The notes under the pieces: model-generated
What the model was told of the DNA's origin: nothing
The model's input: the letters and a program-made list of their open reading frames with translations, nothing else
The model's database searches: none
Origin: Sneathiella sedimenti
Lineage (GTDB): Bacteria; Pseudomonadota; Alphaproteobacteria; Sneathiellales; Sneathiellaceae
Assembly: GCF_017313765.1 (NCBI RefSeq)
Contig: NZ_JAFLNC010000001.1
Span: 992,001-1,056,000 of the forward strand
Reading direction: 5' to 3'
Length of the DNA: 64,000 bases
Position numbers and translations under genes: made by a program
Shown here: piece by piece, positions 10,605 to 15,732 of the stretch
Layout of the letters: each line of letters opens with the position of its first letter
How positions within the stretch are numbered: position 1 is the stretch's first letter

Positions 10605-11024
10605 ATGGCGCGGATATTGATTGCAGAGGATGAGGCCGCCCTTCGGGAATTCATCAGCCGCGCTTTAACTCATATTGGGCACGAAACCGTCGCCGTTGAG
10701 GATGGCGCAGAGGCGCTGGCTGTCTTGCAACGGGACAAGCAATTTGACCTGTTGCTTACTGATATTGTGATGCCGGTTATGGATGGCATTGCCCTTGCCC
10801 TCAAAGTGACAAAGGATTTTCCTGATCTCAAGGTTTTGATGATGACAGGATATGCCGCCGAGAGACAACGAGCCTACAATCTTGAAATGCTGATTCATGA
10901 CGTTATCGCCAAGCCTTTCTCGCTTGATGAAATATGCGAGAAAGTCGAAGAAGCACTGACGAGTGACCGCAGCCTCATGAAGCCTGTCACTACGGCCGAC
11001 GAAGGGCTTCGATCCAAAGAATAG
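10605..11024 (+). CDS. cpdR: CpdR-like single-domain response regulator
   Basis: A 139-residue protein made of one receiver domain and a short tail. Acidic pocket residues are E8, D9 and E10. The phospho-acceptor is Asp53 in LLLTDIVMPVMDG, and the conserved Lys is in IAKPFSLDEI. In Caulobacter, unphosphorylated CpdR helps place substrates on the ClpXP protease to drive cell-cycle turnover. The LLLTDIVMPxMDG core and the hpt neighbour support CpdR rather than a generic receiver. No output domain is present. Confidence 0.82.
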   Translation: MARILIAEDEAALREFISRALTHIGHETVAVEDGAEALAVLQRDKQFDLLLTDIVMPVMDGIALALKVTKDFPDLKVLMMTGYAAERQRAYNLEMLIHDVIAKPFSLDEICEKVEEALTSDRSLMKPVTTADEGLRSKE

Positions 11025-11157: not shown

Positions 11158-12966
11158 GTGACCATCGAACGTGTTTTGATGTTTATTTTGCTTTGGCTGA
11201 CCTGCTTTGTAATCCTGCCCGCGCAGTTTACGTCCGGTCCGAATGCCTTTCAGCCCGAGGGGCCGGATGCCTTCATGCGCTTGGAAAGGGTGAATACTTT
11301 AGTCCAGACAGGAGACTGGTATGAAGGCCGTGTCGCCCGAGCAGCAGGCGAAGGCGGAGCCGATATTCACTGGACGCGACCGATGGATCTGCTGATCCTT
11401 GGCACGGCGGCGCCCCTAATGCCTTTTATGGACATATCAAAGGCAATTGAAACGGCCGGTGTCGCCTTGCCGATATTGATGTCGCTGATCCTCGTTATGG
11501 TCTGTATATGGGCCGTGATGCCGTTAATGCAGCCCGGTAACCTATTTTCAATCGTTCTACTTCTTGCCGTTCAGCCGGTAATTCAGAATTACTTCAATGT
11601 CGGCCGGGTAGATCATCATATGGTACTGGCAGTACTGACTGCTGCTGTTCTTGGCTGCATGATACGCCTCACTTCGGACGGCAGACCACTCCGGCTCGCG
11701 TTGATCGGAGGCATGTTAAGCGGCCTTGGGTTGTGGATCAGCCTTGAATACTTGATTGTGTTTGTTCCTGTTACCCTGGGCCTTGGTCTTTGCTGGCTTT
11801 TCTGGGGGGAGAATTGGAGACGCGCCAATCAGGATTTTGCTGTGGGCGGGCTGTTACTGTGTATAACCGCCATTGCTATTGATGTCGCTCCGGAGAACTG
11901 GCTGGTTGCGCGCTTTGACCGGATTTCCATAGCCCAGCTCTTCTTGGTGGCGTGTCCGGTTCTCTTCTGGTCTGTCTTTGCTGTGTTTATCGGCCGCACA
12001 AACAAGATCGGTCGGCGCCTGACTGGTACGATCGTATTTGGTATTATATGCCTTGGCCCGATTTTCTTCTATTTTCCGGACCTGTTGGTCGGGCCTGTCG
12101 CTGAGGCGGATCCGCGGATTGGGCCGATATGGTACGACAAGGTGAGCGAAATGCTGCCGTTGCTGGACAGCCCACGTATGACGATCCTTTATTGTCTATT
12201 GCCGTTTATTGGCGTTGTTTACGGTGGCTTTGTCCTGATTGGAAAAGGCCATACGGAACACCGTCAAATGTGGGTACGGCTGTTGCCGGTTCTGATCTGT
12301 ACAGGCGTCTTGGCGCTATTTCATATGCGTTCATCCCTTTACCTCGCCGTCGTTGGTGTGATCGCCGCAGGGCAGCTTCTGGAATATCTGCTAAACAGGA
12401 TCAATGCCCATTATCATGGCTGGAAGAAAGGCGCGACGGGACTTCTGGTGCGCGCAGCCATTATTCTTGGGCCGTTCTTTCTGGCATTTCTGGTAGGCAC
12501 TGTTAGCAATGGCCTGAAGTCGTCGGAGGCAGTTGCGGCGGCAAAGCAAAAAGAGCCGCAATGTAGTATCCCCGAAATTGCCGCAACCTTGAGCGATGAT
12601 GCGTTCATTCGCGGCCGTGGTTATCTTAGATTTGCCAATAATCTTGATTTCGGACCAGAACTTATTTATCGGACACCGCATTATTTTCTTGCTGTTCCCT
12701 ATCACCGCAACGGTGAAAGTATTTTCGACGCACACGCACTTTTAACCGCGACAGATTATTCCAGAAGTGATGAGATTCTCCGCAAATACGGCATTGACTA
12801 TATCCTCATCTGCCCCAATGCTTCGTCAAAATCTTACTTTCAGGAGTCAGAATCACCGGAAGTCCTCTATAATAGACTTTTGGGCGGGACCTTGCCGGAC
12901 GACCTAACGGAGATTGATGTACCGCCTCCCTGGAGACTGTTTGCGGTTAGGAATGGTGGAGAATGA
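11158..12966 (+). CDS. STT3-like GT-C membrane glycosyltransferase
   Basis: About 602 residues with a dozen or so predicted membrane helices and a C-terminal soluble part. Features of the STT3/AglB/PglB family are visible: an acidic residue in the first external loop (GPDAFMRLERV, Asp near 37), HWTRPMDLL near 71, and NVGRVDHHM (Asp near 152), which resembles the second acidic motif of AglB proteins. The C-terminal WWDYG motif is not present; NLDFGPE sits roughly where it might be. GTG at 11158 is chosen over the upstream TTG (11113) because AAGGA lies seven bases before it. It overlaps the next GT2 gene by four bases. Probably moves a lipid-linked sugar at the outer face of the inner membrane; acceptor unknown. 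Confidence 0.75.
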   Translation: MTIERVLMFILLWLTCFVILPAQFTSGPNAFQPEGPDAFMRLERVNTLVQTGDWYEGRVARAAGEGGADIHWTRPMDLLILGTAAPLMPFMDISKAIETAGVALPILMSLILVMVCIWAVMPLMQPGNLFSIVLLLAVQPVIQNYFNVGRVDHHMVLAVLTAAVLGCMIRLTSDGRPLRLALIGGMLSGLGLWISLEYLIVFVPVTLGLGLCWLFWGENWRRANQDFAVGGLLLCITAIAIDVAPENWLVARFDRISIAQLFLVACPVLFWSVFAVFIGRTNKIGRRLTGTIVFGIICLGPIFFYFPDLLVGPVAEADPRIGPIWYDKVSEMLPLLDSPRMTILYCLLPFIGVVYGGFVLIGKGHTEHRQMWVRLLPVLICTGVLALFHMRSSLYLAVVGVIAAGQLLEYLLNRINAHYHGWKKGATGLLVRAAIILGPFFLAFLVGTVSNGLKSSEAVAAAKQKEPQCSIPEIAATLSDDAFIRGRGYLRFANNLDFGPELIYRTPHYFLAVPYHRNGESIFDAHALLTATDYSRSDEILRKYGIDYILICPNASSKSYFQESESPEVLYNRLLGGTLPDDLTEIDVPPPWRLFAVRNGGE

Positions 12967-13979
12967 ACCAGAGCGACCTGATTGAAAAGCCAGATGCAGT
13001 GGCCGGACCGGGGGAACTCTGGCGATCCGCATCTCTTGCCGTCATGATCCCTTGCCTCAATGAAGAACAGACGATCGCCGCGGTTATCCGGGATTTTCGC
13101 GCGGCCCTGCCGGAGGCGCGAATAGTTGTCTGTGACAATGCGTCAACAGATAGAACAGCCGAAGTGGCCGCGGAAGCGGGAGCGGATGTAATCTATGAAG
13201 ATATGCCTGGCAAGGGTAACGCAATCAGGCGCCTGTTTTCTGATATTGAAGCGGATATTTATCTGATGGTGGATGGGGACGCGACCTATGAAGCCTCCCT
13301 TGCGCCAGTCCTGGTCGATCATCTGTTGAAACACCGTCTGGATATGGTCTGCGCCAAACGTGTTGCGACCCGGCAGGCGGCCTATCGCAAAGGGCATGTA
13401 TTCGGCAACCGCATGTTCTCGGGGATTGTCGCGCGCGTATTCGGCCGACGCTTTGAAGATATCCTGACGGGATATCGTGTATTCTCGCGCCGGTTCGTCA
13501 AGTCATTCCCGATCCTCTCGGAGGGTTTCGAGATTGAGACAGAACTCACCATTCACGCGCTTGAGCTGAACATGCCGGTCGCCGAAATTGCTAGCACCTA
13601 TCTGGAGCGTCCGGAAGGATCGGACAGCAAGCTCAATACCTTTTCGGACGGATTGAAAATCACGAAGCTGATCGTCAAGCTGATTAAGGACGAGCGGCCG
13701 ATGACTTTCTTCGGCGGATTATTTATCCTGTTCGCCGCAATGTCTGTTGTCCTTGCGATCCCGGTTGTGCTGACCTTTTTTGAGACGGGGCTGGTGCCGC
13801 GGTTGCCGACGGCGGTGCTGTCGAGCGCCTGCATGCTGCTGTCGTTTTTGTTCCTGGCTTGTGGATTTATTCTTGACTCCGTGACCCGTGGACGACGGGA
13901 AAGAAAGCGCATTTCCTATCTTTCCATTGCCGGGCCCGCCACAATAAAAGTGGATGCCGATCGCGGGAAACGCCATTAG
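12963..13979 (+). CDS. GT2 glycosyltransferase, dolichol/undecaprenyl-phosphate type
   Basis: A 338-residue protein. The GT-A domain begins at VMIPCLNEEQTIAAVI (28-43), has VVCDNASTDRTAE (55-67) and the DxD motif in MVDGDATYE (102-110). Two membrane helices (about 242-267 and 278-303) end the protein, as in enzymes that load a sugar onto polyprenyl phosphate (ArnC, GtrB and Dpm1 relatives). Start ATG overlaps the stop of the STT3-like gene. The sugar is unknown. The pairing with a GT-C enzyme suggests that it makes the lipid-linked donor. Confidence 0.88.
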   Translation: MNQSDLIEKPDAVAGPGELWRSASLAVMIPCLNEEQTIAAVIRDFRAALPEARIVVCDNASTDRTAEVAAEAGADVIYEDMPGKGNAIRRLFSDIEADIYLMVDGDATYEASLAPVLVDHLLKHRLDMVCAKRVATRQAAYRKGHVFGNRMFSGIVARVFGRRFEDILTGYRVFSRRFVKSFPILSEGFEIETELTIHALELNMPVAEIASTYLERPEGSDSKLNTFSDGLKITKLIVKLIKDERPMTFFGGLFILFAAMSVVLAIPVVLTFFETGLVPRLPTAVLSSACMLLSFLFLACGFILDSVTRGRRERKRISYLSIAGPATIKVDADRGKRH

Positions 13980-14032
13980 AAAAATATGGGAAAGGGTACG
14001 TCGATTGAGCTGAGTATCGCGTATGCTATTGA

Positions 14033-14752
14033 ATGAACCGAGAGACCACAAATAAAATCAGATTCATCCTGGAAGATTTGCTGCCACCCATTTTAAGGGA
14101 TTCTGTTCTTTTCAAGTGGCTGGCCAAGGCGGTCTGGGGAAATCATATCGTAGCCTTGGCGGAATTTCGGAAAAAAGCGCCTTTCCTGAGTGAAGAGGAA
14201 TATGAAGGTCTTTATCGCAATCACCCCCGGGTTCACGACCTGACAGACAATTCCGAAGCCTGTATCCAGCGTATTGCACAGGGGGTTGTTGGACGTTCAA
14301 TTCTGGATGTCGGTTGCGGCACCGGATTCCTGCTTCAGCGGATTATGGAAATTCGGGGCGACACCTTTGACCGGGTAACCGGAACTGACCTGATCGTGCC
14401 GGACGTACAAGAGGGGCTTGAACTCGTCCCTGCAAAAATCGAGAATCTCCCCTTTTCAGATGGAGAGTTCGATACCGTGATCTGCACTCATGTGATCGAG
14501 CATATTCTTGATTACCGTCAGGCCATACAGGAGCTGCGGCGGGTATGCCGGAAGAAGCTTATCATCGTCGTGCCGCGAGAGCGGGAATATCGCTACACCT
14601 TTAATCCGCATTTCAATTTTTTCCCCTATCCCGAAAGTTTCTTAAGGGCAATGCAGCCGGTGCCGGAGGAGCATACTTGCCTCGATATCGGGCGGGATAT
14701 CTTTTATTGCGAGACAGGTGAAATGTCAGGAGAAAGTCATGGATATAGCTAA
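14033..14752 (+). CDS. Class I SAM-dependent methyltransferase
   Basis: A 239-residue protein with the SAM-binding motif ILDVGCGTGFLLQRI (about 92-106) and post-motif segments FDTVICTHVIEHILDYRQ and ELRRVCRKKLIIVVPRE. Methyltransf_11-type fold; the substrate is not evident. It lies 53 bases after the GT2 gene, and its last 14 bases overlap the small carrier gene, so it probably belongs to this cluster. It may methylate the sugar or lipid handled by its neighbours, which is inference from position. Confidence 0.85.
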   Translation: MNRETTNKIRFILEDLLPPILRDSVLFKWLAKAVWGNHIVALAEFRKKAPFLSEEEYEGLYRNHPRVHDLTDNSEACIQRIAQGVVGRSILDVGCGTGFLLQRIMEIRGDTFDRVTGTDLIVPDVQEGLELVPAKIENLPFSDGEFDTVICTHVIEHILDYRQAIQELRRVCRKKLIIVVPREREYRYTFNPHFNFFPYPESFLRAMQPVPEEHTCLDIGRDIFYCETGEMSGESHGYS

Positions 14753-15092
14753 AGACGCGGCCCTGATCATGCTACCTCTCGTAATCGCGATAGGGCAGGT
14801 ACTGTTTAAACTCACCAGTCGCGATGTCGACGCGGCAAACATGGCGTCGCTCATGAAATTGTCGGTCAATGGATACTTTATTCTTGCCCTAGTGCTTTAT
14901 GGGGCCGCGACGGTTGCCTGGGTTTATGTGCTCCGGCATTTCCCGCTCAACAAGGCGTATTTATTCATGGGGCTGACATTTGTGTTCGTGCCCCTGCTGA
15001 GTTACCTGTTTCTCAAGGAGCCGGTAAATATCCGCTATCTTGCCGGAGCTGCCTTTATCATTTTCGGGATCTGGCTGGCACGAGCTGCCTGA
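14739..15092 (+). CDS. Small four-helix EamA/SMR-type membrane carrier
   Basis: About 117 residues and four membrane helices. HFPLNKAYLFMGLTFVFVPLLSYL and GAAFIIFGIWLA recall the EmrE/ArnE-ArnF size class. ATG at 14739 is preferred over GTG at 14718 because AGGAG lies six bases upstream of it. It overlaps the methyltransferase by 14 bases. ArnE/ArnF-like proteins are thought to flip lipid-linked sugars, and the location beside a polyprenyl-P glycosyltransferase and a GT-C enzyme makes that role plausible. A drug exporter is the alternative. Confidence 0.75.
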   Translation: MDIAKDAALIMLPLVIAIGQVLFKLTSRDVDAANMASLMKLSVNGYFILALVLYGAATVAWVYVLRHFPLNKAYLFMGLTFVFVPLLSYLFLKEPVNIRYLAGAAFIIFGIWLARAA

Positions 15093-15095
15093 GCC

Positions 15096-15617
15096 CTACA
15101 TCACCTTGAAAAATTGATAGAACACCACGAAACCCGCGGCAGCTATGGCAACGCCATAAGGAAGCTGAAGGCCGAGCGCCTTGCCGGTCTGGAGAAGTGG
15201 TGCCGGTTTTTTTAGAACTTTCATGAAAAACCAGTCAATGACACCGGAGACTGCTGGGTTGCGGGAGAGAATGACGGGCAAAACATAGATGAGGGCAAGT
15301 ATGCCGCCCGCCAGGCAAGTCATTAACAGCAGAAGGACCAGGTGATCAGGCCCTGCCCAGAGTGCCAGTGCAGCGAGAAGCTTAACGTCGCCACCGCCCA
15401 GCCAACCGAGGGCAAAAATCATAATCCCGACAACGAGAACGCCCATGCCGCAGAGGAGATGCCAGGGAAGGGAGGACCAGTCGCCGGCGATTGACGCCTG
15501 AAGCAAGTACAGCGCGGCAATGATCAGGGGCAGCATATTCGGAATTCGGCGGGAAAAAACATCCCATATCGCCGCTACTAGGACAAGGCCACCGGCTGAC
15601 ATCATCAGGACAGGCAT
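15096..15617 (-). CDS. cpaA: A24 prepilin peptidase (CpaA/TadV type)
   Basis: About 173 residues, six membrane helices. The two catalytic aspartates of the GxGD aspartyl proteases are in AIWDVFSRRIPN and GWLGGGDVKLLAAL. The N-methylation domain of PilD is absent, as in the short CpaA/TadV class that processes Flp-type pilins and pseudopilins. ATG at 15617 has GAGG nine bases upstream; a GTG at 15626 is less likely. No other tad/cpa gene is in the window. Tail-to-tail with the small carrier gene, three bases apart. Confidence 0.88.
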   Translation of the reverse strand: MPVLMMSAGGLVLVAAIWDVFSRRIPNMLPLIIAALYLLQASIAGDWSSLPWHLLCGMGVLVVGIMIFALGWLGGGDVKLLAALALWAGPDHLVLLLLMTCLAGGILALIYVLPVILSRNPAVSGVIDWFFMKVLKKPAPLLQTGKALGLQLPYGVAIAAAGFVVFYQFFKVM

Positions 15618-15732
15618 TTGATACACCCTCTAAAGGCAAAGCTGTAAGTCTGCCTTAAATCCTACCGGTCAGATATTAGCATATAGTTAAGGAATTCCGT
15701 CGTATCGACCAGATGGTGAGGATGGATTTAAA

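Follow-up and report, generated by a model that had tools for sequence, protein, structure and literature searches.

A Sneathiella gene cassette with an AglB-like GT-C protein is a probable loader-flippase-transferase system for periplasmic glycosylation

Results

Four co-directional genes form a cassette in Sneathiella

This study concerns a four-gene cassette in a 64,000-nucleotide stretch of the genome of Sneathiella sedimenti (Alphaproteobacteria; NZ_JAFLNC010000001.1, positions 992,001–1,056,000, forward strand), hereafter the window, whose numbering is used for all positions. The four open, co-directional genes lie at 11158–15092 on the + strand. The first (11158–12966, GTG start) encodes a 602-amino-acid AglB-like GT-C glycosyltransferase (hereafter GT-C), with a membrane part at residues ~1–450 and an extracytoplasmic domain resembling the AglB core at residues ~465–602. 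It is followed by genes for a 338-amino-acid AglJ/Dpm1-like GT2 polyprenyl-phosphate sugar synthase, the putative loader (12963–13979); for a 239-amino-acid class I S-adenosylmethionine methyltransferase, apparently an optional tailoring gene (14033–14752; PF08241, E 4e-16); and for a 117-amino-acid EamA half-unit resembling ArnE and ArnF, a probable flippase for a lipid-linked sugar (14739–15092). An initial annotation of this DNA had described four genes on one strand with two overlapping junctions, and both overlaps were seen, of 4 bases between the GT-C and GT2 genes and of 14 bases between the methyltransferase and ArnE-like genes. The two C-terminal membrane helices that it gave the GT2 enzyme correspond to hydrophobic helices at residues 252–270 and 285–303, and its 117-residue carrier, given as ArnE/ArnF-sized, is hydrophobic throughout, with weak ArnE and ArnF matches under the curated cut-offs.

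Among 24 Sneathiella genomes, the GT-C gene was found in 11 and the GT2 gene in 10; the eleventh GT-C contig stops within the GT-C gene. GT-C lies downstream of cpdR (10605–11024 in the window) in all 11 loci, and identity across related Sneathiella is 50–77% for GT-C and 73–91% for GT2. Because this position downstream of cpdR is kept in related Sneathiella, the genes are not a product of chance. The GT2 gene adjoins GT-C in each of the 10 genomes that have it, and GT-C, GT2 and the ArnE-like gene occur together in 8/8 loci that reach far enough (the window counted). The methyltransferase gene is present in five of the nine loci where its position is visible; in the other four, the ArnE-like gene comes next after GT2, and a fixed role for the methyltransferase was therefore rejected.

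At the end opposite cpdR, the cassette is bordered by a gene for an A24 prepilin peptidase (15096–15626, – strand; PF01478, E 9e-17). We read the corresponding site in 12 Sneathiella genomes without the cassette (one, G017, was left out). In two of them (L192 and L193) the prepilin peptidase gene follows cpdR after 11 and 22 bases, and the four genes are therefore missing as a block; in the remaining 10, other genes occupy the site. Since the prepilin peptidase gene stays in place in L192 and L193, it was rejected as a part of the cassette. The earlier idea that the four genes are kept together thus stood for GT-C, GT2 and the ArnE-like gene, which form a removable cassette, and failed for the methyltransferase as a fixed member.

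Family profiles relate GT-C to archaeal AglB

GT-C had no Pfam match above chance, and its family has no curated Pfam match. We found the family in 57 of the 386 alphaproteobacterial genomes that were sampled, requested at a completeness of at least 80%; these and the GT2 counts below are lower bounds, at most 3 or 5 candidates per genome having been scored. For residue counts we used a 79-row alignment made from the 85 GT-C frames in 75 fetched loci (several of which share a genome or genus), minus seven that were shorter than 540 amino acids or cut off, plus the window protein. A contig scan with the single GT-C protein as query found two loci, and a plasmid search for further AglB found one record. 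No literature was found on the LA_3751 family.

One NCBIfam model, TIGR04154 for the archaeal oligosaccharyltransferase, gave GT-C a weak match that spans 360 residues (18.9 of 450 bits, E 3.9e-4). It was also the commonest model in the family, matching 12 of 17 members and, in a larger set, 29 of 44 (best E 5.1e-13). When a profile of 17 members was compared with the PDB, the core domains of Archaeoglobus fulgidus AglB were matched at E 1.3e-4 and 4.4e-4, alongside two dodecins at E >0.4. A 44-row profile matched, up to E 10, only AglB core domains (3vgp, E 1.4e-9; 3vu0, E 2e-7), and the 3vgp match places the C-terminal domain of the GT-C family on the A. fulgidus core domain. The family profiles were also compared by hhalign with the full-length AglB of Halocatena, against which the 79-row profile scored 95.9% (E 5.5e-9, residues 73–399) and the 44-row profile 93% (E 3.5e-7). 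The controls scored 1.3% for ArnC, 0.7% for ArnT, 0.2% for GT87, 0.1% for DUF2142, 0.2% and 0.3% for two membrane proteins of the window, 0.1% for a 152-amino-acid fragment, 0.3% for reversed AglB and at most 0.2% for five shuffles. One further control reached 12.5%: another family of large membrane proteins, presumed to be GT-C, whose genes lie next to GT2.

These comparisons indicate that the GT-C family is related to archaeal AglB, and that it is best described as AglB-like, not as a classical oligosaccharyltransferase. The initial annotation had called GT-C STT3-like and proposed a profile search against the STT3, ArnT and PMT families. In this search PF02516, ArnT and PMT_2 were negative (PF02516 and PMT_2 in searches of the S. 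sedimenti genome), TIGR04154 was weakly positive, and AglB was positive through the family profiles. The likeness to STT3/AglB therefore stood; STT3 proper was rejected, the curated cut-offs being missed and the WWDYG motif absent. A relationship with ArnT or PMT was also rejected, on the ArnT score in hhalign and the missing PMT_2 match. As WWDYG was looked for and is lacking, we place GT-C outside the STT3 oligosaccharyltransferases.

GT-C keeps AglB-type catalytic residues on a changed acceptor side

According to PMC8342417, AfAglB binds the metal by Asp47, Asp161 and His163, with Glu360 of the TIXE motif taking part via water and with His81 and Arg426 close to the phosphate. The counterparts in GT-C would be Asp37, Asp152, His154, Glu331, His71 and Arg391. 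The hhalign alignment pairs Asp-His-His with Asp-His-His, Lys-Val-Ser-Glu331 with Thr-Ile-Gly-Glu, and Arg391 with the equivalent of AfAglB Arg426, AfAglB numbers having been counted onto these pairs by hand; Asp37 and His71 fall outside the aligned stretch and were placed by motif and by the 34-residue spacing that they share with Asp47 and His81. Asp37 and Asp-His-His at 152–154 had been singled out in the initial annotation, and both are present and conserved in the family: Asp37 occurs in 77 of 79 rows, with gaps in the other two, and the three residues of Asp-His-His in 72, 76 and 77. Glu331 is found in 78 rows and Arg391 in all 79. All six AglB positions are filled in 60/79 rows, and all except His71 in 68/79. 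In a family whose members fall to 18% identity, few positions are as well conserved as these. A further residue, Glu197 (11746–11748), is invariant in 79/79 rows and matches no AglB active-site residue known to us.

The acceptor side differs from this pattern. In PMC3703281 and PMC8342417, the Ser/Thr pocket that receives the sequon is built from WWDYG and a DK or MI motif. Tryptophan is found at either of the aligned WWDYG tryptophan positions in 0/79 rows, and WWD or WWE elsewhere in three. In AfAglB, Gln571 of Phe570-Gln571 lies close to the peptide (PMC8342417). Near this place the GT-C family has Tyr515-His516-Arg517-Asn518, kept in 74, 68, 63 and 49 of the 79 rows, in a register that is unsure: the 44-row PDB alignment sets His516 on Gln571, and the 17-member alignment has a gap there. 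We take the acceptor side of GT-C to be changed, and the change to be conserved, as judged from the alignments. Because the WWDYG tryptophans are absent and Tyr-His-Arg-Asn is conserved, the acceptor site appears unlike the N-X-S/T pocket.

GT-C is predicted to work with one loader type and two flippase types

The GT2 protein is nearest to archaeal AglJ (TIGR04182, E 2.5e-62; 210.9 bits, under the cut-off of 325), which agrees with the Dpm1/ArnC-like loader first suggested, in its AglJ/Dpm1-like form. It also matches PF00535 above the cut-off, and its D104xD106 motif is invariant in 15 rows. The 117-amino-acid protein passes the EamA cut-off (PF00892, 31.7 bits against 28.2) and matches ArnE (E 5.5e-11; 42.7 of 92 bits) and ArnF (E 8.5e-11; 42.4 of 99) below theirs.

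The GT2 subfamily was present in 79 of the 386 genomes, 34 of which also have GT-C. It occurs in 34/57 GT-C genomes and in 45/329 others (Fisher p 8.7e-13, phylogeny ignored here and in the association statistics below). Outside Sneathiella, GT2 accompanies GT-C in eight loci of four families. A profile for the ArnE-like protein matched in Sneathiella only, and our own GtrA profile found GtrA near GT-C in 12 of the 75 loci, all 12 passing the Pfam cut-off; a thirteenth match (L036), which runs into the GT-C gene, was left out. In L136, L137 and L138, GtrA, GT2 and GT-C are found together. Because the ArnE-like gene accompanies GT-C in Sneathiella and GtrA lies near GT-C elsewhere, GT-C is predicted to have a single type of loader as its partner, and one or the other of two types of flippase.

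Two further arrangements were seen around these partners. In L091:8301–9875, L095:5054–6643 and L097:7748–8833, a gene resembling FAD amine oxidases (confirmed by Pfam for L091) lies between GtrA and GT-C. In 40 loci fetched around GT2 alone, the frequent neighbors of this gene are GtrA and a large hydrophobic protein outside the GT-C family; the combination is found in 7 of the 40 (L155:5458–8075, L158:5226–8241, L159:4253–7271, L164:5161–8313, L172:5883–8904, L174:5868–8840 and L176:6160–9274) and in some more. The large membrane protein is a GT87 in L155, and no Pfam match was obtained for its counterparts in L158 and L164, so that an undescribed GT-C family beside GT2 and GtrA is possible.

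Flp pilin and flagellin genes lie near GT-C in part of the family

A Flp pilin gene is present in 9 of the 75 GT-C loci and in none of the 40 GT2 loci. These matches came from our own profile, for which four of the nine were seeds, and all nine were afterwards confirmed above the Pfam cut-off. The gap between Flp and GT-C is <0.4 kb in seven loci and 1.6 and 2.5 kb in the other two. The nine loci span five families, and the tree gives four label changes, two of them forced by well supported branches; the linkage thus has few independent origins. A rough estimate of the chance of this spread (5 of 33 families), assuming two pilin clusters per genome, is 3e-6. At the genome level, Flp occurs in 44/57 GT-C genomes and 135/329 others (p 5e-7); no such link was seen with GT2 (41/79 against 138/307, p 0.31). 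In two g39 loci, CpaB or secretin genes adjoin the pilin gene. A24 peptidase genes were found near GT-C in five loci outside Sneathiella, which are the Flp loci of g39 and g160 (confirmed by Pfam for two).

A flagellin gene lies ~1.5 kb from GT-C in 2 of the 75 loci, both of one genus and both over the Pfam cut-off. The flagellin profile was built from the two loci that it found, so that only its silence elsewhere is a result. In these loci, from two genomes (L033:3464–10904 and L090:6044–13469), two AglB-like GT-C genes, GT2 and the flagellin gene lie within ~7.4 kb. Another locus, L184:4856–8351, holds a flagellin gene, an AglJ-like GT2 and a DUF2142 membrane protein, in a genome with no detected AglB-like GT-C.

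The S. sedimenti genome has two Tad loci. The first (L207, C2:696000–714000) has two Flp pilin genes followed by CpaB and secretin genes. The A24 peptidase of the window found no tblastn match in the 18 kb read there, and the second Tad locus (L208) has an A24 peptidase of its own; the prepilin peptidase of the window may serve the first.

Discussion

Taken as a class, the cassette is likely to serve periplasmic glycosylation as a loader-flippase-transferase system. On the cytoplasmic side, the GT2 enzyme would, to judge from its similarity to AglJ and Dpm1, load polyprenyl phosphate with a sugar, probably a hexose, taken from a nucleotide sugar. The ArnE-like protein would then flip the lipid-linked sugar, and GT-C would transfer the sugar from this lipid monophosphate donor to an extracytoplasmic acceptor, a role suggested by its homology in profile comparisons. 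Asp37, Asp152 and His154, with Glu331 linked through water, would form the metal site; His71 and Arg391 would hold the phosphate, and the C-terminal AglB-core domain the acceptor. The methyltransferase, where present, would methylate the sugar. A loader, a flippase and a GT-C enzyme acting on a lipid-phosphate sugar are a known scheme (PMC11127046, PMC8035078), in line with the initial suggestion of such an arrangement. The unusual part is the transferase, a predicted bacterial relative of AglB with an archaeal-type Asp-His-His and without the Trp-Trp of the sequon pocket.

Because Flp adjoins GT-C in 7 of the 75 loci and flagellin lies near it in two, we tentatively name appendage proteins (Flp/Tad pilins, joined by flagellin in a single lineage) as the acceptor in the wider family, at somewhat less than an even chance; for the Sneathiella cassette itself, an appendage-protein acceptor is a guess. 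PMC11127046 mentions a pilin that is O-glycosylated with arabinofuranose. A fuller version, which we regard as doubtful, is that the AglB lineage has a branch in bacteria which, with AglJ-like loaders and exchangeable flippases (ArnE-like or GtrA), puts single sugars on type IVc (Flp/Tad) pilins and in one lineage on flagellin, independently of a sequon. Equally doubtfully, this branch would have spread over the Alphaproteobacteria, keeping the archaeal active site and dropping the sequon pocket.

Several observations weigh against our main interpretation of the cassette. The relationship to AglB is visible through family profiles only and not from a single protein: no PDB entry matched the window GT-C by itself up to E 10, Halocatena AglB stayed unaligned when only the C-terminal part of the profile was used (0.07%), and the curated cut-offs of TIGR04154 and PF02516 lie far above the family scores and E-values listed. 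AlphaFold2 models of the whole protein and of the C-terminal domain had mean pLDDT (predicted local distance difference test) values of 35.4 and 40.5, with three usable sequences. As to the partners, 23 of the 57 GT-C genomes lack this GT2 subfamily at the threshold used, GT2 lies outside the fetched stretch in 24 of the 34 genomes that have both, and in a clustering of neighbors only GT2 (seven genus labels) and an ABC-ATPase group (five) reached at least five genera. As to the acceptor, Flp pilins are lacking in 13 of the 57 GT-C genomes, 23 of the 24 Sneathiella have Flp with or without the cassette, the Flp genes of S. sedimenti are on a different contig from the cassette, and a treatment of the association statistics that ignores phylogeny counts against them.

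The strongest alternative is that the cassette decorates lipopolysaccharide (LPS), lipid A or an envelope polysaccharide, its C-terminal domain binding glycan or lipid. ArnC/E/F/T, GtrB/A/C and the Rgt enzymes of Rhizobium offer likenesses for such decoration. The characterized loader-flippase-GT-C systems of PMC11127046 and PMC8035078 mostly modify polysaccharides, teichoic acids and O antigens, and the ArnE-like flippase, the GtrA genes of 12 other loci, the lost sequon Trp-Trp and the 13 genomes without Flp pilins all fit this account. Against it, the C-terminal domain is a relative of the domain by which AglB binds its acceptor, no carbohydrate-binding module is among the Pfam matches listed, and ArnT and GT87 fail to align with GT-C. 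The pilin and flagellin genes of 9/75 and 2/75 loci also speak for protein, in a comparison in which LPS and polysaccharide genes were not systematically tested. We give envelope decoration a real chance that stays somewhat below even.

Improbable, in our view, is a true N-glycosylating oligosaccharyltransferase that acts on Asn of N-X-S/T through an altered pocket. The catalytic residues of AglB are kept, and N-X-S/T can be made out by eye in the Flp pilins beside GT-C in L110 and L112; those of L103 and L106 have none in their readable part. In Sneathiella (L207, L209–L228), Flp tails with N-X-S/T were found in seven of 10 genomes that carry the cassette and in two of 11 that lack it (Fisher p 0.03, the genomes not being independent). 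The count covered 10 of the 11 genomes with the cassette and 11 of the 13 without, some of them by one pilin only. These sequons barely exceed the shuffled expectation (11 against 7.85), and we set them aside as weak evidence of N-glycosylation. Against N-glycosylation stands also the absence of Trp from the WWDYG tryptophan positions in every row. The last alternative, a degenerate GT-C that is not catalytic on sugars or genes brought together by chance, is highly implausible: the active-site residues are among the most conserved even at 18% identity, at its fixed site the cassette is either there or missing as a whole, and its GT2 partner recurs in other families.

If the appendage reading of the GT-C family were true, it would be a bacterial counterpart of the glycosylation of archaeal pilins and archaellins in which the N-X-S/T sequon is not needed. 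An AglB-type active site with a changed acceptor side would show an oligosaccharyltransferase scaffold turned to other acceptors, and the family would open to experiment a way by which Alphaproteobacteria may glycosylate their surface or pili. No description of such an enzyme was found in the open-access literature among the matches listed.

Among known systems, the TfpW type of pilin glycosylation in Pseudomonas has a GT-C that is thought to use a lipid-phosphate monosaccharide. It resembles our proposal in its GT-C, in such a donor and in the pilin, and differs in the type of pilin and of GT-C; we know of no link between this type and Flp/Tad pili. The ArnC/ArnE-ArnF/ArnT and GtrB/GtrA/Gtr-type systems likewise combine a loader, a small flippase and a GT-C, and a single sugar on a lipid monophosphate is expected in both cases, whereas the GT-C of the cassette is AglB-related and not ArnT-related (0.7%). 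With the polyprenyl-phosphate hexose synthases of the AglJ/Dpm1 group, the GT2 protein shares its loader role and its closest likeness, that to AglJ, but it scores below the AglJ cut-off and a bacterial carrier lipid is expected. GT-C itself compares best with archaeal AglB (with STT3 and PglB): it has the two DXD positions, the second in the archaeal Asp-His-His form, the Glu of TIXE/SVSE in EL5, the phosphate Arg and a C-terminal AglB core domain. It differs in having Tyr-His-Arg-Asn in place of the WWDYG tryptophans, in a C-terminal domain of only ~140 residues, and in partners that point to a single lipid-phosphate sugar as its donor.

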